A stretch of 21,513 nt of DNA, from positions 1 to 21,513 of the IMG/VR virus record IMGVR_UViG_3300037963_005623; one strand, given 5' to 3'. A model generated the notes under the pieces. The model saw only the letters and a list, made by a program, of their open reading frames with translations, did no database searches and had not been told where the DNA came from. The DNA is from a virus. Both the position numbers and the translations under genes were made by a program. Positions 108 through 21,033 of this stretch are shown here, piece after piece. Positions within the stretch are counted from its first letter, which is position 1; the number at the start of each line of letters is the position of its first letter.

Positions 108-326
108 TCAAATACCAAATGCACCGAAGAAGAAAAGACTGCCGGTTGTGGCATAAGAAAGAATCGCAGCCACAAATCCAATCATTGCAGTACGACCATT
201 AAGTTTCTCTGCCTTCTCAGCATAAGTCTCATAACCGTAACGCTCTGCCGCAGTCTTGTCAATATACATTCGTGGTTCTGTAGCCCACATATTCATTTGT
301 CCTTGTTCGTTGCTCGTTACGGTCAT
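108..326 (-). CDS. hli: high-light-inducible protein (Hli), chlorophyll-binding single helix
   Basis: This 72-residue protein has a soluble N-terminal half and one hydrophobic helix from about residue 46 to 70. The chlorophyll-binding signature ExxNxRxAMIGF is intact (E40, N43, R45). Hli proteins bind chlorophyll and carotenoid in thylakoid membranes and protect photosystem II assembly. Cyanophage copies are thought to keep the photosystems working during infection. The gene has its own promoter (354-382), which separates it from the glycan cluster upstream. The ATG at 326 lies about 21 nt from the predicted transcription start. An in-frame ATG at 296 is preceded by AAGGA and could be the real start, giving 62 residues. 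The family call is very safe; the start is less so. Confidence 0.95.
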   Translation of the reverse strand: MTVTSNEQGQMNMWATEPRMYIDKTAAERYGYETYAEKAEKLNGRTAMIGFVAAILSYATTGSLFFFGAFGI

Positions 327-406: not shown

Positions 407-1198
407 TTATTTGCCTTCGAATCCTGGAGGAAGTCGATTAAAGTATGGATCATAATCAAAAATATCGTTCCAATCTTCAACCTCAACTGATTGATTTTTC
501 CAAAAATTCCAAAGTCCTTCATAACTTGACTTATGAAAAACATCGATGTGTTCATCATGAATAGAGGATCCTAATTCAAGTTTATATAAAAACAAGGGAA
601 TAGAAAAAGTATTACCAGAATTATAAATCAAATCATCAGCAACTGCTCTCGGTTTAACTCCATTATCAATCTTATACTTATCACCTCTCACATGAAGGTC
701 AATCAACTTTTGAGCATGTCTACGAGTTATCATATAACATGCTGTAGAAAAATCATTCACAAATCTCTTATGCATCTTCAAATAAACTGATGCGGGATTA
801 ATAATTGCAAGTTGAATTACATCATAATCATAGGGAACTTTTGCATAAAAATCTTTCCATGTAAAAGGCCAATGAGTTACCGTGGAAATATCACAGTCAT
901 CTTCCATCATTAAAGCACATGGAGAATCCGTTTTAAGAAACTCTACCATTGCTTTCAGATGAGACGTAGTGCATCCTACCTCACCTGAAGACATACTATC
1001 AGGATACCTACCTTTAAGAATATCTCCAAGGTCTCTGCCATCTCTACCATCATATGCAGAGATTCGAGTATAATTCTCAATACCCCAGTATTCAAATTGA
1101 TTTTCAATATATTCTTTTCTTTCTGGTTGATCATCCAGATTCAAATAAAATATTGGAGGAAGTCCTTTTAGTTTATATAATGCTTTATTCTTATCCAT
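407..1198 (-). CDS. glycosyltransferase family 25 (LPS biosynthesis type)
   Basis: The last gene of the glycosyltransferase operon encodes a 263-residue protein of the GT25/LPS galactosyltransferase type. Seen: an N-terminal IFYLNLDDQPERKEY (residues 16-30), which matches the family's opening strand. The signature GEVGCTTSH (72-80) is followed by a metal/nucleotide-binding acidic motif MMEDD (97-101). GT25 enzymes add galactose or related sugars to lipooligosaccharide cores. The ATG at 1198 overlaps the upstream stop as TGATG and is preceded by GGAAGG at a workable distance. A longer frame beginning with TTG at 1222 is unlikely. The precise donor and acceptor cannot be read from the sequence. 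Confidence 0.85.
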   Translation of the reverse strand: MDKNKALYKLKGLPPIFYLNLDDQPERKEYIENQFEYWGIENYTRISAYDGRDGRDLGDILKGRYPDSMSSGEVGCTTSHLKAMVEFLKTDSPCALMMEDDCDISTVTHWPFTWKDFYAKVPYDYDVIQLAIINPASVYLKMHKRFVNDFSTACYMITRRHAQKLIDLHVRGDKYKIDNGVKPRAVADDLIYNSGNTFSIPLFLYKLELGSSIHDEHIDVFHKSSYEGLWNFWKNQSVEVEDWNDIFDYDPYFNRLPPGFEGK

Positions 1199-2049
1199 CA
1201 AATTACCTTCCAATTTTGACAATATAAATCTTTGGTGTTTTTATCAGAGTAGTCAGAACCAAACCACATTTTTGGTGCAACAACTTTTTGATATGGATTT
1301 GTCTGCAACCAAGCACCCCACCATGACATGGAACTATTAGCAATAATAGCATGATCACATAGAGACATCAAGCACATATCAAGGTATGGAACTAATGCTC
1401 CATCAGAGTGCTTATCCTGAGGTTCTGAAAACATAAATCGATCACCTCTAAAAAATGGTTGTTCCTTTACCCAATCAATTGAATCTGAAAATACAACAAC
1501 CGGTAAACTATCATCAAACTCTGCAAGTGCCTTTTCATAATACTCAAGGGGTTGTACAGGATGTTGATGAGCAAGATTTACATATGCCCACTTAAATCCT
1601 CTCTTGTCAGCAAGTCCAGGATCACCACGACGAACATGCAAAAAGATAACCTCTCCATCTATTTGCTCACGAAAATTTTTACAGGGTTCCAACCATTCAT
1701 CTTTAAATACAAAGTCCTTACGAATGTCATTCTCTATATGCTTGAAATATTTTTCAGTTTGAAAGAAACCATGAACATTCACATTATCAGGACACTTATT
1801 GAAAAATTCCTCGTCAAAATGAAATTGCCTCTCTTGAATAACATTATCAGATTGAATCCAACCTACGTTTTTATTGGTTGATAATTCAAATGCTTCTAAC
1901 AATCCATAGTTATCAATTTGAATTTCATTATTAATTGGAGGAATTGTATAATCAAATCCACGATTAGCAGCAATACCTTTCAGTGCTGCATATTGAAACA
2001 TCTGATTACCAAATCTTCCAATAGTGCCAATACCATTAAACCCAATCAT
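1198..2049 (-). CDS. alpha-1,2-fucosyltransferase-like, glycosyltransferase family 11
   Basis: This 283-residue protein carries both hallmark blocks of GT11. The first is GRFGNQMFQYAA (residues 11-22). The second is the GDP-fucose-binding HVRRGD (138-143). A C-terminal block ANSSMSWWGAW precedes the final strand, as in bacterial FutC/WbsJ-type enzymes. The family normally transfers L-fucose from GDP-fucose in alpha-1,2 linkage; related 6-deoxy or L-galactose donors are plausible here because the cluster also encodes a GDP-mannose 3,5-epimerase and a GMD-like SDR. The start overlaps the upstream SDR gene by 14 nt, and the stop overlaps the GT25 gene by 1 nt, so the genes are probably translationally coupled. 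Length is typical for the family. Confidence 0.9.
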   Translation of the reverse strand: MIGFNGIGTIGRFGNQMFQYAALKGIAANRGFDYTIPPINNEIQIDNYGLLEAFELSTNKNVGWIQSDNVIQERQFHFDEEFFNKCPDNVNVHGFFQTEKYFKHIENDIRKDFVFKDEWLEPCKNFREQIDGEVIFLHVRRGDPGLADKRGFKWAYVNLAHQHPVQPLEYYEKALAEFDDSLPVVVFSDSIDWVKEQPFFRGDRFMFSEPQDKHSDGALVPYLDMCLMSLCDHAIIANSSMSWWGAWLQTNPYQKVVAPKMWFGSDYSDKNTKDLYCQNWKVI

Positions 2050-2896
2050 TTTTCATCGCCTCAAACACTTTATCAATACCATCTTGAATACCAGTTTTTG
2101 GTAACCACCATCCAGTAATATAGGTATCCGCTTCGTTTCTCTTATCCATCTGAACACTATCCTTTGCAAGACCTGGTTTAATTTTTACATCATACCTTCC
2201 GATTTTATTGAAACAACCCTGAATAATTGCAGCAACATCTTTGATAGAAGTTGAGTTGAATGATGTAATATGCAGTGGATCTTCTGGTTTAAAGTCAGTG
2301 AAGTTCTCCATCACTGTTTCCAGTGCCTCACAGCAGTCCTCAGCATACAAGAACTGACGTTCTTCTGTGCCGTCTGTCATCATCTCGAATTCTCCCTCCT
2401 CAAATCCTTTACGGATGAAGTCAGTGATGACGTGTGCTTTCTCCATATCCTTTTCGATACCATAAACGTTCCAGAACTTTACAGTAAGTCCCTTAAGTGC
2501 AGTAGTATGAAGTTCTCCCACACGTTTCATGACACCATATGGTGAATAAGACATGTTGCTCATCTGAGAAGATGCAAAGACGAATCTCTTATTATATCTT
2601 TTTAGTAGAGCAAAAGTATTTGCCATCATACGTGTATTATTGTTGATGAACTGAAAAGTATGTTGATACTTTTTTAGGTAGTGTGAACCACCAACATCAA
2701 ATGCAAGGAAGAATACAAAGTCTGCTTTACTTATAATACGCTCAACATATGTATTAGGTGTTGCTCTCAGGTCATTCTGAATACCATCAACAATATCAAC
2801 ACCAGTAACCTCGTGTCCTTTCTCTGTCAGATACTCTTTTAAGTACGCTCCAATCTGACCTGCAGATCCTAAGATAACAATGTTCATTTTAGACAT
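2036..2896 (-). CDS. NAD(P)-dependent extended SDR (sugar epimerase/dehydratase family)
   Basis: This 286-residue protein is an extended short-chain dehydrogenase acting on nucleotide sugars. The Rossmann glycine motif GSAGQIG lies at residues 10-16. A catalytic Ser region (S109-S110) and the YxxxK pair (Y120, K124 in YGVMK) are intact. C-terminal text around FLYAEDCCEAL is typical of substrate-binding parts of NDP-sugar epimerases. It sits among glycosyltransferases rather than with the other sugar-nucleotide genes, so it may supply the donor for one of its direct neighbours. It overlaps the GT4-GT6 gene by 8 nt upstream and the GT11 gene by 14 nt downstream. A second ATG three codons in is a possible start. 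Reaction type (epimerase, dehydratase or reductase) is not resolvable. Confidence 0.8.
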   Translation of the reverse strand: MSKMNIVILGSAGQIGAYLKEYLTEKGHEVTGVDIVDGIQNDLRATPNTYVERIISKADFVFFLAFDVGGSHYLKKYQHTFQFINNNTRMMANTFALLKRYNKRFVFASSQMSNMSYSPYGVMKRVGELHTTALKGLTVKFWNVYGIEKDMEKAHVITDFIRKGFEEGEFEMMTDGTEERQFLYAEDCCEALETVMENFTDFKPEDPLHITSFNSTSIKDVAAIIQGCFNKIGRYDVKIKPGLAKDSVQMDKRNEADTYITGWWLPKTGIQDGIDKVFEAMKNDWV

Positions 2897-4556
2897 GATA
2901 ATTTGAATTATTTTTTGATAGATGAACTATTTTTGCTTCAAAATTACATACATCAGAAAAATCTTCCGGGTATGCATAAGATGAGGATAAAGTATTTACT
3001 CTGGACTTATTCTCTATAAAAAATTTATTTAGATGGCTCTCATCATGCCATATTGCTACTATATCATCTTTTAGATCATCATTGGTTCTGTTCTGAAGTT
3101 CATCAATTAATTCGAATACATAGGGAACTTTACCACCCCATAAACATCCCTGCCAGTATGTTGATATATCATCACCCTCTTTGATGGCAGCACGACACTT
3201 AGGGTTAGTCTCAAATGCACCAGGAAACTTACCGTGCGGTGGCATACTAAGGAAGTGACAGGGATGATGCACCCCAAAGAATGGTTTACTAGGATCAAAG
3301 AATTCTTCTTCAGTAATGTCACTAGTCACCAGAGCATCAGCATCAATGAACACAAACCAATCATTCTTCATGATCTCCTGTCTTGCCTTATTAAGAATTT
3401 CAAATCTTTTAAGGGTGATGAATGGCCAATCTAAATGATCCTGTTGATATTGAATCACGTTGTCGGGCATTCCCTCTAGTTCTCCGTCCGTGAAAACTAA
3501 AAATGTCTTCTCAGACTCAGGTAAGAAGTGCTCTTCAATTTTTTCATAGTAACTAGGAAGATAGTTTAAATATTTCCCTGTCCCTATGAAGCAAATAGCA
3601 ACTTTATTCCTCTTATTCTCAATCATCTGTTCGACATTTGGTATGAAATAATTTTCAATTACATTAGTCCAATCAAACTGCTTGGAGTATTCTAAGATTT
3701 CATCTCTATTGTTTACAGAGTATTCTCTATTCTCAATGATTGCTCTCTCAACATACTCCAAGTCATCAACTTTATCCTCAGGGATCACAGTAATAAACTT
3801 CTTACTCAGGTCAAGGTTTGCTGTTGCCCACTGACTAACAACAACTCCAAGACCAGCAGCAAATGCTTCCATGACAACCAGTGAGTGTGCCTCACCATCA
3901 GATAGTAGAACTAGATTACCATAGTCAGTCAGATTATCATATAGATAATCCTTTTCCCATTCACCAAGATAGTTCCTGGACTGGTCAAATCTGTGATCTA
4001 CAATGTTACCTGCATACCATAGACTATCTATTGATTGGAAGAAGCATTGCCTCTTCCTATAATCAACCTTCGCAAGGAAAATAGATCTGTCAGCAAACTT
4101 AGGAGTGTCAGTCACTCTAAAGTTATCTGACATAACTCCATTTGGATTTAAGTATAGTCTATCTGATGGTATCTTACAATCATTTTCATACACTCTATTG
4201 ATACCATCAGATAATCCAAAGACTACAGGTTTAACCTGTCCAAAAACATCAAAAACCCTCTGCTTATATGGTCCCAAGAGTTCGGGTCTTTCAATATAAG
4301 CAAAATGAGTTGTTATAGCACAAGGATATCTGATATAGGGATATAGAGGAACCCAATCATCATAGTTAATATGTACAAAGTCTGGTTTAAATTCATCAAT
4401 CATACCCAGAATCTTCATCGGATCTCCGATGTTTATGATCTGAACATCATGTCCTAGTTTTTCTAGAGTTATCTTATAATCCCAGATTAAAGATTCTACA
4501 GCACCCCATCCTTTGGGTGGGATTGGAGTGTCTGGTCCAATAATACTAATTCGCAT
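2889..4556 (-). CDS. two-domain glycosyltransferase: GT4-like domain fused to GT6 (ABO-like) domain
   Basis: This 555-residue protein is a fusion. Residues 1 to about 312 form a GT-B, GT4-like domain: a glycine-rich N-terminal loop (IPPKGWGAVES), LVLLSDGEAHSLVVMEAFAAG (about 215-235) and a C-terminal helix. This half is a clear paralogue of the next gene upstream (4546-5523). Residues from about 317 to 555 form a GT6 domain, the family of the ABO blood-group and alpha-1,3-galactosyl transferases. It has FIDADALV with the DxD-type triad D405-A406-D407, a WQGCLWGG block (468-475) and the strong family signature WHDESHLNKFF (503-513). Many bacterial GT6 enzymes have NxN in place of DxD, so retention of DxD suggests metal dependence. 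One chain probably adds two successive sugars. No frameshift or linker damage is visible. Confidence 0.88.
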   Translation of the reverse strand: MRISIIGPDTPIPPKGWGAVESLIWDYKITLEKLGHDVQIINIGDPMKILGMIDEFKPDFVHINYDDWVPLYPYIRYPCAITTHFAYIERPELLGPYKQRVFDVFGQVKPVVFGLSDGINRVYENDCKIPSDRLYLNPNGVMSDNFRVTDTPKFADRSIFLAKVDYRKRQCFFQSIDSLWYAGNIVDHRFDQSRNYLGEWEKDYLYDNLTDYGNLVLLSDGEAHSLVVMEAFAAGLGVVVSQWATANLDLSKKFITVIPEDKVDDLEYVERAIIENREYSVNNRDEILEYSKQFDWTNVIENYFIPNVEQMIENKRNKVAICFIGTGKYLNYLPSYYEKIEEHFLPESEKTFLVFTDGELEGMPDNVIQYQQDHLDWPFITLKRFEILNKARQEIMKNDWFVFIDADALVTSDITEEEFFDPSKPFFGVHHPCHFLSMPPHGKFPGAFETNPKCRAAIKEGDDISTYWQGCLWGGKVPYVFELIDELQNRTNDDLKDDIVAIWHDESHLNKFFIENKSRVNTLSSSYAYPEDFSDVCNFEAKIVHLSKNNSNYHV

Positions 4557-5523
4557 TTGGTTCTAATTTCTCAATATTTTGAGCATAAAGTTTTACAAGA
4601 CCTTCCCAAGAAAAATTATCAATACCAAATTGTCTAATATCATCTCTCATACTAATAGAGACCTCACGGTTTTCTTTGATCTTCTCTTCAACATAGGAAA
4701 TGTCTTCAAGTTTATCATCAGGAATTACAGTAACAAAAGGTAGATCCTTTGGTAGATCATGTGCAGCATACTTAGAAATAACTACACCCAACCCATTGAT
4801 AATTGCCTCCTTAACAACCAAAGGTGTTCCATTTTCTCCGTCAGACAAAAGAACAAGACTTGCAAAGTCTGTAAAATGTTCACGCTTATAATCATCACTC
4901 CACTCACCAAGATAGTTCTTAGACTGATCGAATGGAGTAGCACCAGTATCCTGTCCCACATAATCAATAGAGTCAATGTCTTGATACAACCATTGCTTCT
5001 TACGATGATAAATCTGTCCCAGATACAAAGATCGATCAGCTTTTAGTGCCTCACTACGATATGTGAATCGTTTATGATTAGCACCGTTCTCAGATAGAAG
5101 AAGTGTGCTCTCATCTGCTCCAGCATTCTTGAAAGTCTCATAATCTTTCTTAGAAATACAAAAAACATAATATTTTTTGTTATTGATAATCCAATCAAAA
5201 ATGCGATCATATCCATCACGACGGTGCATATGCGGTTGATCAATATATGGATAGTGACTACTAAATGCTAACTTAGGAATATTAGTTTCAGCAACAATTC
5301 TATCCATGATAGGATGAAAAACATCGTAATGAACATGAGCAAAATCATATTGCTCCTCATTCAAATACTCAATAATGTCATCATAATTGGGAGTGTTTAC
5401 AATTGACCCTTCATGCCCTAGTTCATCCAACTCAAGGGCATAATCCCAAATTAAACTTTCAACGGCACCCCATCCATCAGGAGGAATGGGCATAATACCA
5501 GGTCCAACAAGTGCAATTTTCAT
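4546..5523 (-). CDS. GT4-like glycosyltransferase, paralogue of the fusion's N-terminal half
   Basis: This 325-residue GT-B type glycosyltransferase begins MKIALVGPGIMPIPPDGWG. It aligns along its length with residues 1-310 of the next gene downstream: shared blocks include WGAVESLIWDY, RSLYLGQIYHRKKQ, DQSKNYLGEW and LVLLSDGENGTPLVVKEA. The donor-binding Glu region (VVKEA) is intact. The two genes therefore arose by tandem duplication, one copy being linked to a GT6 domain. The start is the ATG at 5523, overlapping the upstream stop as TGATG and preceded by AAGGAG at good spacing; a TTG one codon earlier is not favoured. The last 11 nt overlap the fusion gene. Linkage and donor are unknown. 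Confidence 0.85.
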   Translation of the reverse strand: MKIALVGPGIMPIPPDGWGAVESLIWDYALELDELGHEGSIVNTPNYDDIIEYLNEEQYDFAHVHYDVFHPIMDRIVAETNIPKLAFSSHYPYIDQPHMHRRDGYDRIFDWIINNKKYYVFCISKKDYETFKNAGADESTLLLSENGANHKRFTYRSEALKADRSLYLGQIYHRKKQWLYQDIDSIDYVGQDTGATPFDQSKNYLGEWSDDYKREHFTDFASLVLLSDGENGTPLVVKEAIINGLGVVISKYAAHDLPKDLPFVTVIPDDKLEDISYVEEKIKENREVSISMRDDIRQFGIDNFSWEGLVKLYAQNIEKLEPNAN

Positions 5524-6251
5524 CAATAAAGCTCCTTATACGCATGAACAAGAGAAAAATCAGTCTCACGGAAGTTAGGTGTCTTCCAGGTTTCAGTTAA
5601 ATTAGTGTTGATAGAATAGTCTTTACCACAGACAAAGTATGCAATCTGCATGTAGAGATCTAACCATCCAAATCTGTGATCCATATACTTGAGAATATAA
5701 TCAAACTCAAAATCTAGGAAGTCATAGATCTTGTGGTAGTTATCTAGGAAAGTATCAATATTGTAGATGCTACCCCCTCCTGCTCCATACCAATCAACAT
5801 TTGGATTAGCACCATACTTTGTTTTAATGAAATCCATCAATGCTGGTTGAATCTTATTCTCAGGAACTTCAAATCCAGCACACTCCCATTCAAGAGGAAT
5901 CTTCACTTCACCTTGGGTAAGAACATCATCCTCCATCATAATCATGTGAGTGCCACCAGAGGACTTCACATATCGTGCTGCTTCTCGAAACATATGAATC
6001 CAATGTAGAGTTTCATCTTTTGTGAATCCATATACACCAGACTCATGTCCCCAGTTTCTACGACCAATCCTCATATAGGAATGAACGTAGTTTACATTAT
6101 ACTTTTCACAAAGATCAGAGTAATCTACACCACCGTCACAGCAAATTGTATATGGTGCATCAGGGTGATACTTTCTAAACTCCTGTAGAATAAATTCTGT
6201 TGCTTTCTTGTTCTCATACACCGTATGAAAACATCCAAATTTTGTGCTCAT
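5523..6251 (-). CDS. putative GT-A fold glycosyltransferase
   Basis: This 242-residue protein has no signal peptide or membrane segment. It shows a GT-A-like plan: an N-terminal FGCFHTVYENKKATEFIL strand and helix, a THMIMMEDDV block (residues 101-110) whose EDD triad (107-109) probably binds metal and the sugar nucleotide, then DWYGAGGGSIYN, which fits an acceptor-binding loop. I do not recognise a CAZy family with confidence. The acidic triad and location among known glycosyltransferases carry the call. It starts with an ATGA overlap on the upstream gene and has AAGGA just before the ATG. Its stop overlaps the GT4 gene by 1 nt. Substrates are unknown. Confidence 0.6.
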   Translation of the reverse strand: MSTKFGCFHTVYENKKATEFILQEFRKYHPDAPYTICCDGGVDYSDLCEKYNVNYVHSYMRIGRRNWGHESGVYGFTKDETLHWIHMFREAARYVKSSGGTHMIMMEDDVLTQGEVKIPLEWECAGFEVPENKIQPALMDFIKTKYGANPNVDWYGAGGGSIYNIDTFLDNYHKIYDFLDFEFDYILKYMDHRFGWLDLYMQIAYFVCGKDYSINTNLTETWKTPNFRETDFSLVHAYKELY

Positions 6252-11150: not shown

Positions 11151-12169
11151 TATGATCTCCACAAATCAACACCATGTTTCACAAACTTAAATGGAACTAC
11201 TTTTCCAATCTTCCTATTTTCAAGAGAAGTTATAAGTTGATGCCTCTTATCAAAATCAGTAAAGAGAATCATATGTCCTCCACCACCAGCACCTGATATT
11301 TTAGCACCAGTAGCACCATTTTGCAAAGCAAAGTTATAAGCATCAATCAACTCAGGTGAAGCAACATTTTCATTAGTTTCCATTTTCATTTTCCAATACG
11401 TATTCATTAACTTTGATATCATATTAAAATCTCCAGTCAATAAAGCATTCTTATATTCAATACATGTTTCTTTAATTTTATGTGTTGCTTGAATAACTTT
11501 TTTATTGTCTGTTAAATTTTTAGTAGTATTGAGAATAACATTTGCATCTTTACGTGGTTTACCAACATAATAAAGAACTGTATTCAATTCCATCATATTT
11601 TGTGTTTTGTAATTCAATCTCAATGGATTAACAATAGTCCTTCCATCAGGTAAAAACTCCATAAAATTAAATCCCCCAAACGCTGAAGCAAATTGATCTT
11701 GCTTTCCTCCGGGAAGATTACATATACTTCTTTCAATTTTTATAGCATCCTCTGCAATATCATATTCACCTCTAGGCAAACCATAATATTCTGCAATAGC
11801 AGAGACCAAAGCAACAACTAAAGCACTAGAACTCCCCAAACCACTACCAGGAGGTGCCTCAACATATGTTGTGATTTTAACAGGGTGTCTATCCAAATCT
11901 TTAGTTAGATATTGATAGGTATTAACTAAGAGTTTCAATGCCCCATCATAATATGAATCACTAGCATCAAAGAAGAAAAAGTTTTTTTCTATACCAAGAT
12001 CAACACTTTTAAAACTCCATTGAGAAAAAGGTTCTATTTTACAATATGCATATTGGTCTATTGTTCCGTTCAATACAACTCCACCATACTTACTCCAATA
12101 TGGTTGAAGATCTGTACCTCCACCGGACATTGCTAATCTTAAAGGAGCTTTAGAGAATACTGTTTTCAT
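11150..12169 (-). CDS. hddA: HddA-like GHMP kinase (D-glycero-alpha-D-manno-heptose 7-phosphate kinase type)
   Basis: This 339-residue GHMP kinase begins MKTVFSKAPLRLAMSGGGTD, the characteristic opening of HddA and of related fucose kinases. The ATP-binding PPGSGLGSSSA lies at residues 106-116. GGKQDQFASAFGGFNF (154-169) and a C-terminal KISGAGGGGH complete the fold. HddA phosphorylates D-glycero-D-manno-heptose 7-phosphate at C1 on the way to GDP-heptose. Together with the HddC-like gene it suggests such a route, although neither GmhA (isomerase) nor a classical GmhB is in the window, so the host or another phage locus would have to supply them. It overlaps both neighbours by one nucleotide. 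An L-fucose or other sugar kinase is the alternative. Confidence 0.82.
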   Translation of the reverse strand: MKTVFSKAPLRLAMSGGGTDLQPYWSKYGGVVLNGTIDQYAYCKIEPFSQWSFKSVDLGIEKNFFFFDASDSYYDGALKLLVNTYQYLTKDLDRHPVKITTYVEAPPGSGLGSSSALVVALVSAIAEYYGLPRGEYDIAEDAIKIERSICNLPGGKQDQFASAFGGFNFMEFLPDGRTIVNPLRLNYKTQNMMELNTVLYYVGKPRKDANVILNTTKNLTDNKKVIQATHKIKETCIEYKNALLTGDFNMISKLMNTYWKMKMETNENVASPELIDAYNFALQNGATGAKISGAGGGGHMILFTDFDKRHQLITSLENRKIGKVVPFKFVKHGVDLWRS

Positions 12170-12909
12170 TAGTGATGAACGTTGAGATCAATTGGTTCTG
12201 CTTTTATATTATTATTCATTAAATGATATTTCAAAAGTAATTCATTACACCAATATCCAACATCCTCGTTTGATTGTTTGACGAGAGGATACAGACTTAA
12301 AAATACACTTGAATATGCGTTCATAGAACTATTAGAACCCATCGCAAACCAATCACCTAGCATACCATCAGGATGATCAGGATTATGTTGATAGTACACT
12401 GTATTCTCCTCGGGACTTTCTTCAAAAGTCACACCCAAATGAGGTCCATAATCAATTCTGTTGCGAATGATCCAATCATATTGAACACCAGTTTCAGATG
12501 AATATTGCTCTTTAATTAAATTTGACATCATCAGACTATACCACATACAGTGCGTGGTATTATTCAAATATGCTTTTGCATCGTCAAGTCCTGACGGAAC
12601 TTCAAGTGCCCATGTATGAGCCCTTTCAAAAGTTTTCTGTGGATATTCAAAAGTACGTTTCCAAACTTTAGGATGTTCCACCATCAACACCTTAGGTTTA
12701 TACAACGATTGCAGAGAATCAATAGCATCAGATGATAAACGATGCCCCTCTCTACCAGGAATAACTGACTGAGTACTTAAATTTTCCTCATCAAACCAGG
12801 TATGAATGAATACATCAACATCATTGTTCTTCAAAATAGTTTCATTTAATTTTTGAAACCCGACTTCAACAACTCTTGGTTGTCCAGATAAACAAAGTGC
12901 TACTTTCAT
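12169..12909 (-). CDS. glycosyltransferase-like protein of unknown family (SGQPR type)
   Basis: This 246-residue protein opens MKVALCLSGQPRVVEVGF and carries DVFIHTWFD a little later. That is the pattern of an uncharacterised group in polysaccharide clusters of bacteria and algal or cyanobacterial viruses, often presumed to be glycosyltransferases. A middle block DWIIRNRIDYG, with R and D residues, and GMLGDWFAMGS could form a donor-binding site. No classical DxD is secure. It is soluble and without repeats. The gene ends in a TAATG overlap with hddA and starts with an ATGA overlap on the methyltransferase. Function is inferred from context. Confidence 0.55.
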   Translation of the reverse strand: MKVALCLSGQPRVVEVGFQKLNETILKNNDVDVFIHTWFDEENLSTQSVIPGREGHRLSSDAIDSLQSLYKPKVLMVEHPKVWKRTFEYPQKTFERAHTWALEVPSGLDDAKAYLNNTTHCMWYSLMMSNLIKEQYSSETGVQYDWIIRNRIDYGPHLGVTFEESPEENTVYYQHNPDHPDGMLGDWFAMGSNSSMNAYSSVFLSLYPLVKQSNEDVGYWCNELLLKYHLMNNNIKAEPIDLNVHH

Positions 12910-16314: not shown

Positions 16315-16343
16315 ATTTTATCATGGTTTGATTGAAACGTCAA
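16315..16343 (-). promoter_or_regulatory. sigma70-like promoter of the central sugar operon
   Basis: TTGACG (16338-16343) and TAAAAT (16315-16320) on the minus strand are spaced by exactly 17 bp. The TGA of the -35 (16340-16342) is the stop codon of the GDP-mannose 3,5-epimerase gene. Predicted leader to the ATG at 16292 is about 16 nt. Confidence 0.78.
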
Positions 16344-17383
16344 TGATCAGTTTGAGTATTAATCCAATAATATGTGCAACGAATACCCTCTTCAAGGGTC
16401 ATTGAGTAATCCCAATCAAGTTTCTCTCGAATCAAATCATTGTTAGAATTGCGTCCACGAACACCGAGAGGACCGTCAATATGAATTTTTCTGACCTCTT
16501 TTTCGGCAACCCTAGAAACAATTTCTACCAATTGATTAATGGTGACCATTTCTTCAGAACCAATATTCACAGGACCCATAAAGTCACTATCCATCAATCT
16601 TCTAGTTGCTTCGATGCATTCATCAACATACAGGAAGGAACGAGTTTGCAGACCGTCACCCCATACTTCGATTGCTCCCCCCTCGTTGGGGAGATTGGCA
16701 ACCTTTCTACAGATTGCCGCTGGTGCCTTCTCTCTTCCCCCATCCCAGGTTCCTTCGGGTCCGAATATGTTATGATACCTAGCAATGCGAACAGGAATCC
16801 CATAATTACGATTGTAAGCCCGGTATAGTCTCTCACTGAATAGTTTTTCCCATCCATATTCGGAATCTGGGTTTGCTGGATATGCTGATTCTTCACGGCA
16901 ATCTGGATTATCGGGGTCTAATTGATTATGCTCTGGATACATACAAGCAGATCCAGAATAGAAGATTTTAGTTTTATTCTGTTCTGAAATTTCATTAAAT
17001 TTACGTTGTTCCTCAAGAACGTTCAAATTAATAGACACAGAGTTGTGCATGATATCTGCATCATTCTCACCAGTGAATACAAATCCTGCACCACCCATAT
17101 CAGCAGCAAACTGATAGATCTCATCAAAAGGTTCTGCGAATTTATCTACAATATCTTTATAGAAGTTTCCAAGATATCCAGTAAAACGAACACATCGTTT
17201 CACTATATTAACATCTCTCAAATCAGCGACAATAAACTCATTTGCATGAGATGCACAATATTCGGGATGTTTAAGATCAACTCCACGAATCCAGTATCCC
17301 TCAGAACGAAGTCTCTTTACCATGTGACTTCCAATAAATCCACCGGCACCAAGTACCAATGCGGTTTTCTTATATTCAGACAT
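16340..17383 (-). CDS. GDP-mannose 3,5-epimerase
   Basis: This 347-residue extended SDR matches plant GDP-mannose 3,5-epimerase (GME) block by block: LGAGGFIGSHMVKRL at the Rossmann loop, FAADMGGAGFV, SGSACMYPE with catalytic Cys147, the YxxxK pair Y176/K180 in YGWEK, RYHNIFGPEGTWDGGREKAP with Lys219, WGDGLQTRSF, and GVRGRNSNN near the end. Cys and Lys are the acid/base pair in the Arabidopsis enzyme. GME converts GDP-D-mannose to GDP-L-galactose and GDP-L-gulose. An insertion of about 20 residues near position 65-85 is unusual. The gene forms a unit of its own with a promoter at each end and a Shine-Dalgarno (GAGG) before the ATG. It probably feeds a GDP-L-hexose to the transferases downstream. 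Confidence 0.92.
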   Translation of the reverse strand: MSEYKKTALVLGAGGFIGSHMVKRLRSEGYWIRGVDLKHPEYCASHANEFIVADLRDVNIVKRCVRFTGYLGNFYKDIVDKFAEPFDEIYQFAADMGGAGFVFTGENDADIMHNSVSINLNVLEEQRKFNEISEQNKTKIFYSGSACMYPEHNQLDPDNPDCREESAYPANPDSEYGWEKLFSERLYRAYNRNYGIPVRIARYHNIFGPEGTWDGGREKAPAAICRKVANLPNEGGAIEVWGDGLQTRSFLYVDECIEATRRLMDSDFMGPVNIGSEEMVTINQLVEIVSRVAEKEVRKIHIDGPLGVRGRNSNNDLIREKLDWDYSMTLEEGIRCTYYWINTQTDH

Positions 17384-20961: not shown

Positions 20962-21033
20962 TCGGGGTGAGAGGGATCGAACCTCCGACCTATGCTTCCC
21001 AAAAGCACCGCGCTACCTCTGCGCTACACCCCG
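20962..21033 (-). tRNA. tRNA-Pro (anticodon UGG)
   Basis: The 72-nt minus-strand sequence folds into a full cloverleaf. The acceptor is CGGGGTG/CACCCCG with discriminator A. The D stem is GCGC/GCGC. The anticodon stem GTGCT/AGCAT carries the loop TTTGGGA, giving anticodon TGG (20999-21001). The T arm is GGAGG/CCTCT with loop TTCGATC. C1-G72 is usual for bacterial tRNA-Pro. CCA is not encoded. Transcription probably starts at the promoter at 21106-21134, leaving a leader of about 66 nt. It may supplement the host tRNA pool for CCA/CCN codons. Confidence 0.95.

Follow-up and report, generated by a model that had tools for sequence, protein, structure and literature searches.

A GT4-GT6 glycosyltransferase fusion in a cyanophage sugar-gene cluster, and the recurrent joining of its GT4 module to different partners

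Virus record IMGVR_UViG_3300037963_005623 of IMG/VR, the whole 21.5-kb stretch of which (positions 1 to 21,513; hereafter the window) was analysed, consists almost entirely of sugar genes on the minus strand, and one of these, a 555-residue open reading frame (ORF) lying beside a homologous gene of 325 residues, raises the question of what a phage might do with two putative glycosyltransferases on a single chain, and of where the two halves came from. The window DNA matched records of Synechococcus phages and other marine phages, and the isolate relatives examined were Kyanoviridae. The reading preferred here, to which a probability of roughly 0.6 is assigned, is that the window derives from a Kyanoviridae-type cyanophage and that the gene product would be a bifunctional glycosyltransferase of a phage-encoded surface-glycan pathway resembling those for lipopolysaccharide (LPS) or O-antigen.

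A first-pass annotation, made from the DNA alone, had described the 555-residue protein as a GT4-like domain joined to a GT6 domain bearing WHDESHLNKFF and a DAD triplet, a description borne out by Pfam, PHROG, structural and motif comparisons alike. Residues 308-537 matched the Pfam GT6 model (PF03414) at 1.9e-20, with 73.3 bits against a cut-off of 25, while phrog_33732 and phrog_3317, both glycosyltransferase families whose members elsewhere are separate proteins, covered residues 1-315 (1.6e-145) and 317-555 (1.5e-103), respectively. The match to the NCBIfam family 6 glucosyltransferase model NF041524 (171 bits) lay under its cut-off of 250, as did those of the GT4 half to the Pfam models Glycos_transf_1 and Glyco_transf_4 (16.3 and 19.7 bits; cut-offs 26.4 and 28.5). 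Since these GT4-type Pfam models were below threshold, the GT4 assignment of the N-terminal half was based on its fold, its EX7E motif and its phage family.

An AlphaFold2 model was computed from 73 sequences comprising proteins of the window and of fetched loci, with annotated phage-record proteins excluded, and both halves were modelled with confidence (mean predicted local distance difference test score, pLDDT, of 92.9; predicted template modelling score, pTM, of 0.84). The GT6 half of the model (317-554) shared the fold of BoGT6a from Bacteroides ovatus (PDB 4ayj; also 4cj8) with Z = 31.3 and 1.9 Å over 228 residues at 32% identity, a result that, together with the profile match, places residues 317-555 in GT6 as had been claimed. 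The GT4 half (1-315) adopted a GT-B fold, the nearest solved example being the alpha-1,2-glucosyltransferase tll1591 (PDB 7fg9, 8x3q; Z = 27.5), from which function may not transfer at 17-18% identity, followed by MshA (Z = 27.0) and AviGT4 (Z = 25.9). DSSP analysis of the model left about 2-4 residues between the two folds, from the last GT4 helix (296-313) to the first GT6 strand (318-324). The EX7E motif (E222, E230), the DAD triplet (405-407) and Glu506 were all intact: EX7E was kept in all 81 GT4 rows aligned, fused and unfused, while E506 and K548 of the GT6 half aligned with E192 and K231, the catalytic Glu and the diphosphate-contacting C-terminal Lys of BoGT6a, and were mostly kept in the phage family. 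The ORF was in this way confirmed as a true fusion of a GT4-like GT-B domain to a complete GT6 domain. Production of a free GT6 protein from an internal in-frame ATG at about residue 311 was not relied on; that ATG is missing in loci L002, L003 and L007.

Among the matches listed, a scope that applies to all fused and unfused figures below, the GT4-GT6 fusion was present on at least 27 contigs, which came from numerous separate metagenomes. These form three sets, one of 10 that includes the window, one of 11 around L083, L097, L116 and L134, and one of 6 around L137-L143. The nine further contigs of the window lineage shared its fusion, with 74-94% identity across the aligned parts. Values of the ratio of non-synonymous to synonymous substitution rates (dN/dS), determined against four relatives, were 0.024-0.054 for the GT4 half and 0.056-0.084 for the GT6 half, which indicates that both are under strong purifying selection. 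An assembly or sequencing artefact that joined two genes would accord with the fact that GT4 and GT6 genes stand apart in most relatives; however, the same open fused frame occurs on the 10 contigs of the lineage and on at least 27 overall, under purifying selection, and this recurrence in independent samples refutes an explanation whose likelihood is put close to nil.

The earlier view that such a protein is unusual in a phage needs dividing. The protein is indeed a genuine two-domain transferase with a DxD-bearing GT6, but GT6 had already been reported in two cyanophages (PMC3961637), and the fusion is not unique to the window. No earlier report of a GT4-GT6 fusion was found in the literature searched, from which subscription journals were largely absent; what is new here is the combination of GT4 and GT6 domains, each of a known enzyme family, together with its recurrence and the exchange of partners.

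That exchange was apparent from the 110 distinct GT4 ORFs among the matches listed, which comprised 83 unfused copies, 22 fused to GT6, four fused to GT25 and one fused to a carbamoyltransferase, with the join in every fusion lying at position 312-325 to within a few residues. A topology that kept all fused copies in one group was rejected by the approximately unbiased test on both the GT6 tree (p-AU 7e-88) and the GT4 tree (p-AU 1e-43), and with it a single origin of the GT4-GT6 fusions; conservatively, the trees would call for at least two GT4-GT6 events, plus GT25 and carbamoyltransferase events. The GT4-GT25 fusions (L091, L098, L101 and L144; 585-589 residues) fell on the GT4 tree in two or more separate positions. 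In the nearest isolate-phage relative of the window GT4 half, SynMITS9220M01_208 (QJT70214.1), the same residue marks the join of the same GT4 to a Nol-like carbamoyltransferase, whereas the GT6 of that phage stands alone elsewhere. In the SynMITS9220M01 record (MT408532.1; L050:4001-6520) the GT4-carbamoyltransferase protein, of 839 residues, is annotated as hypothetical.

Phage Bellamy has a GT4 and a carbamoyltransferase from these same families as two distinct genes with a 4-bp overlap, and Synechococcus phage DSL-LC02 has the same GT4-GT11-GT6-GT25 set in the same place beside hli, but as four separate genes in contrast to the fusion of the window. The commonest layout, in 54 of the 110 cases, was a GT4 gene overlapping a GT25 gene by a few bases, frequently flanked by the paralogue upstream and by hli downstream; cassettes found between GT4 and GT25 comprised GT11-GT6, carbamoyltransferase and others. 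Exchangeable tailoring genes would follow the GT4 gene downstream, starting next to its stop codon or overlapping it; to judge from the junctions, such short overlaps may make in-frame welding by small changes easy, which would be how the fusion arose. It is tentatively proposed, at somewhat less than even odds, that GT4 is a fixed N-terminal module with an exchangeable C-terminal GT6, GT25 or carbamoyltransferase attached at one and the same residue; if true, fusion would be a repeated phage route for coupling successive glycan steps and switching the surface glycan of the infected cell, and the recurrent fusions point to steps that probably follow one another on a single glycan.

Three different partners on the same GT4 at one junction, with very short linkers, would also be explained if only one half, GT6 or GT4, were active and the other were a tether or scaffold that localises its partner to the membrane or to a complex. 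EX7E on the one side, and DxD and the catalytic Glu on the other, are nevertheless kept, dN/dS is low in both halves, and this alternative is judged to be distinctly improbable. The reading of the fusion protein as a two-step transferase is plausible.

The adjacent 325-residue gene had been taken for the source of the GT4 half by tandem duplication, and the two GT4 regions do align significantly, as predicted, with 39% identity over 325 columns (E = 3e-71). A recent duplication of that gene, the new copy of which then captured GT6, would have in its favour this homology and the fact that the two genes adjoin, with an 11-bp overlap. However, on a tree of 93 sequences the paralogue formed a clade apart from all GT4 genes, with full support (Shimodaira-Hasegawa-like approximate likelihood ratio test, SH-aLRT, 100), and its motif was E-x8-E in 12/12 representatives, as against E-x7-E in GT4. 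Furthermore, the fused GT4 shared approximately 60-75% identity with the unfused copies in other phages, far above the 39% shared with its neighbour, and the paralogue lay directly upstream of an unfused GT4 in 46 of the 80 cases in which the upstream side was visible. Clade separation, identity gap, motif spacing and the pairing with unfused GT4 together indicate that the tandem pair is an old and common feature, and that the 325-residue gene is an ancient paralogue. An adjacent homologue is therefore all that stands of the duplication claim; a recent duplication as the source is refuted by tree and identity, and is accorded very little probability. In L007 (5514-6486) the paralogue gene is broken into two overlapping ORFs of 157 and 178 residues.

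With respect to the GT6 half, the DAD triplet had been regarded as special to this copy, but DxD was present in 116/116 distinct cyanophage-type GT6 sequences among the matches listed (115 DAD and one DGD), whereas in 79 GT6 sequences from bacterial and archaeal genomes there were 11 with DAD and 68 with NAN or a variant. BoGT6a has NAN and is metal-independent, and a DxD-bearing bacterial GT6 has been shown to require metal (PMC3961637). The unusual trait of the phage GT6 family is its donor loop instead. In ABO transferases, positions 266 and 268 are Leu and Gly or Met and Ala, selecting GalNAc (N-acetylgalactosamine) or Gal (galactose) (PMC4692239); in the window copy they are Gln and Cys, and QGC predominates in the phage family, compared with AGG in BoGT6a. 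The human ABO enzymes GTA and GTB (Z of about 26) have family, DxD and WHDESHLNK in common with the phage domain, but differ in carrying Leu/Met266 and Gly/Ala268, and a fusion partner, here GT4, is found only in the phage protein. The phage clade, with its DxD and QGC loop, constitutes a natural test of GT6 metal and donor choice.

No picocyanobacterial source of the phage GT6 was recognised by record title in the best 80 genome-collection matches, in which the top identity was 43%. Among 386 genomes from a single phylum, sampled around a Melainabacteria metagenome-assembled genome, 11 had GT6; one of these (G261) has photosystem genes, and its GT6 shares only 27% identity with the phage domain. 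A host origin of the phage GT6 was rejected on the lack of a picocyanobacterial match in those best 80 and on the distance of the G261 sequence. In G261, a photosynthetic genome of 2.3 Mb, the GT6 gene (L284:8314-9000) encodes DAD and, by eye, directly follows a long secA-like ORF. A divergent GT6 clade was made up of L137, L139-L143, L020, L030, L136 and L138, and the few phage GT6 sequences in which the C-terminal Lys and HHPCH are lost (HSPSD/HSPAD, QHPT) seemingly belong to this L137-type clade. The BFVD entry A0A5J6VM96, a 958-residue Megaviridae environmental protein named GT6, matched the two-domain model at E = 1.2e-19 with a low template modelling score, and is possibly another viral multidomain GT6.

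The GT6 genes were closely associated with GT11. Both genes were present in 35 of the GT4-GT25 intervals, GT6 only in 4, GT11 only in none and neither in 60; a GT11 gene lay within 3 kb of 70/73 GT6 genes, and the pairing extends outside the GT4 cassette, the two genes adjoining in isolates such as Bellamy, S-CAM9 and S-PRM1. The alpha-1,2-fucosyltransferases of H-antigen synthesis are GT11 enzymes and the A/B transferases belong to GT6; given that order, H and then A/B, and the linkage, the most economical model has GT11 acting first and GT6 second, both on one sugar. For a fucosylated galactose acceptor like that of the ABO enzymes, the nearness of GT11 would be an indirect pointer only. In the scheme that we infer for the activity of both halves, the step order, the glycan target and metal dependence, the N-terminal half, a retaining-type GT4 enzyme of GT-B fold, would extend a glycan chain, the C-terminal half, a DxD-bearing and probably metal-dependent GT6, would add an alpha-linked hexose, and the neighbouring GT11 would probably attach a fucose-like 6-deoxy-L-sugar to the acceptor sugar that it shares with GT6. 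GT11 and GT6 would thereby build a blood-group-like branch on the chain extended by the GT4 half, two of the steps being placed by the fusion on one polypeptide, and the role would probably be the remodelling of infected-cell surface sugars. Large-genome cyanophages carry many transferases of unknown role, and the tie between GT6 and GT11 provides a concrete and testable guess at a product.

Alternatively, the cluster could glycosylate virion proteins of the phage and not host LPS. Virus-encoded multidomain transferases for capsid glycans are known from other large viruses, and PBCV-1 A111/114R, like the protein proposed here, has several transferase activities on one viral chain, although it is an algal-virus protein with three functions in capsid N-glycan synthesis and, as far as the available part of that source goes, no GT4-GT6 pairing is claimed for it (PMC7826918). 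The remainder of the window, however, holds GMD-like, rmlB, rmlC, heptose-kinase-like (HddA-like) and methyltransferase (FkbM) genes, a sugar set that with GT25 resembles an LPS or capsule locus, and related cyanophage genes have been read as LPS modification that influences grazing or how other phages attach (PMC9602691); virion glycosylation is accordingly considered unlikely.

Confidence in the bifunctional surface-glycan enzyme is lowered by a number of points. The Gln and Cys at the donor positions mean that ABO-like chemistry is not to be assumed, and since QGC replaces the ABO donor-selecting residues, the GT6 donor is not callable from sequence. The Fisher p value for the GT11-GT6 association (1e-22) is inflated, the counted cassettes sharing ancestry. 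Genes for GDP-fucose synthesis in the window are distant matches only, below curated cut-offs, so GT11 may use a donor other than fucose. Multiple gains of the fusion are not fully separable from gain combined with loss and recombination, a history that may apply because the junctions of the window and L083 sets are similar and because L005 combines a window-type GT6 with an L083-type GT4. Finally, no measured activity or other biochemistry of any phage member was found in the literature searched.

Table 1. Positions of the fusion gene, its domains and motifs, and neighbouring features in the window.
Feature	Position	Strand	Basis
High-light-inducible gene (hli)	108-326		
GT25 gene, 271 aa (ORF from its TTG), end of glycan cluster	407..1222	-	Pfam PF01755, 5.6e-13
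GT11 (alpha-1,2-fucosyltransferase family) gene, 283 aa	1198..2049	-	Pfam PF01531, 4.4e-23
NAD-dependent sugar epimerase gene adjoining fusion gene, 286 aa	2036..2896	-	Pfam Epimerase, 1e-24
GT4-GT6 fusion gene, 555 aa, ATG start	2889..4556	-	ORF list, Pfam/PHROG, AlphaFold2
GT6 GT-A domain, residues 318-555	2892..3605	-	Pfam PF03414, BoGT6a 4ayj fold
WHDESHLNKFF, residues 503-513, with catalytic Glu506 (= BoGT6a Glu192)	3018..3050	-	Alignment
QGC (Q469, G470, C471) at ABO positions 266-268	3144..3152	-	Alignment to human ABO transferase
DAD (DxD) of GT6 half, residues 405-407	3336..3344	-	Alignments
Junction, residues 314-317	3606..3617	-	DSSP of model, junction comparison
GT4-like GT-B domain, residues 1-315	3612..4556	-	phrog_33732, tll1591 fold, EX7E
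EX7E of GT4 half (E222, E230)	3867..3893	-	Alignments
GT4-like paralogue (PAR), 325 aa from its ATG, E-x8-E	4546..5523	-	39% identity, tree, motif
tRNA-Pro	20962-21033		

Three further proteins of the window were recorded. The 242-residue protein at 5523-6251 is probably another transferase, its Pfam match to the SseK/NleB glycosyltransferases being weak and below cut-off (E = 0.0047). A 246-residue protein inside the sugar cluster (12169-12909) matched DUF7796 (3.6e-7) and phrog_13607, a family of unknown function. The 347-residue epimerase at 16340-17383 by eye resembles GDP-mannose 3,5-epimerase; its top NCBIfam match was GDP-L-fucose synthase, below cut-off, and its DNA is approximately 78% identical in several other phages.

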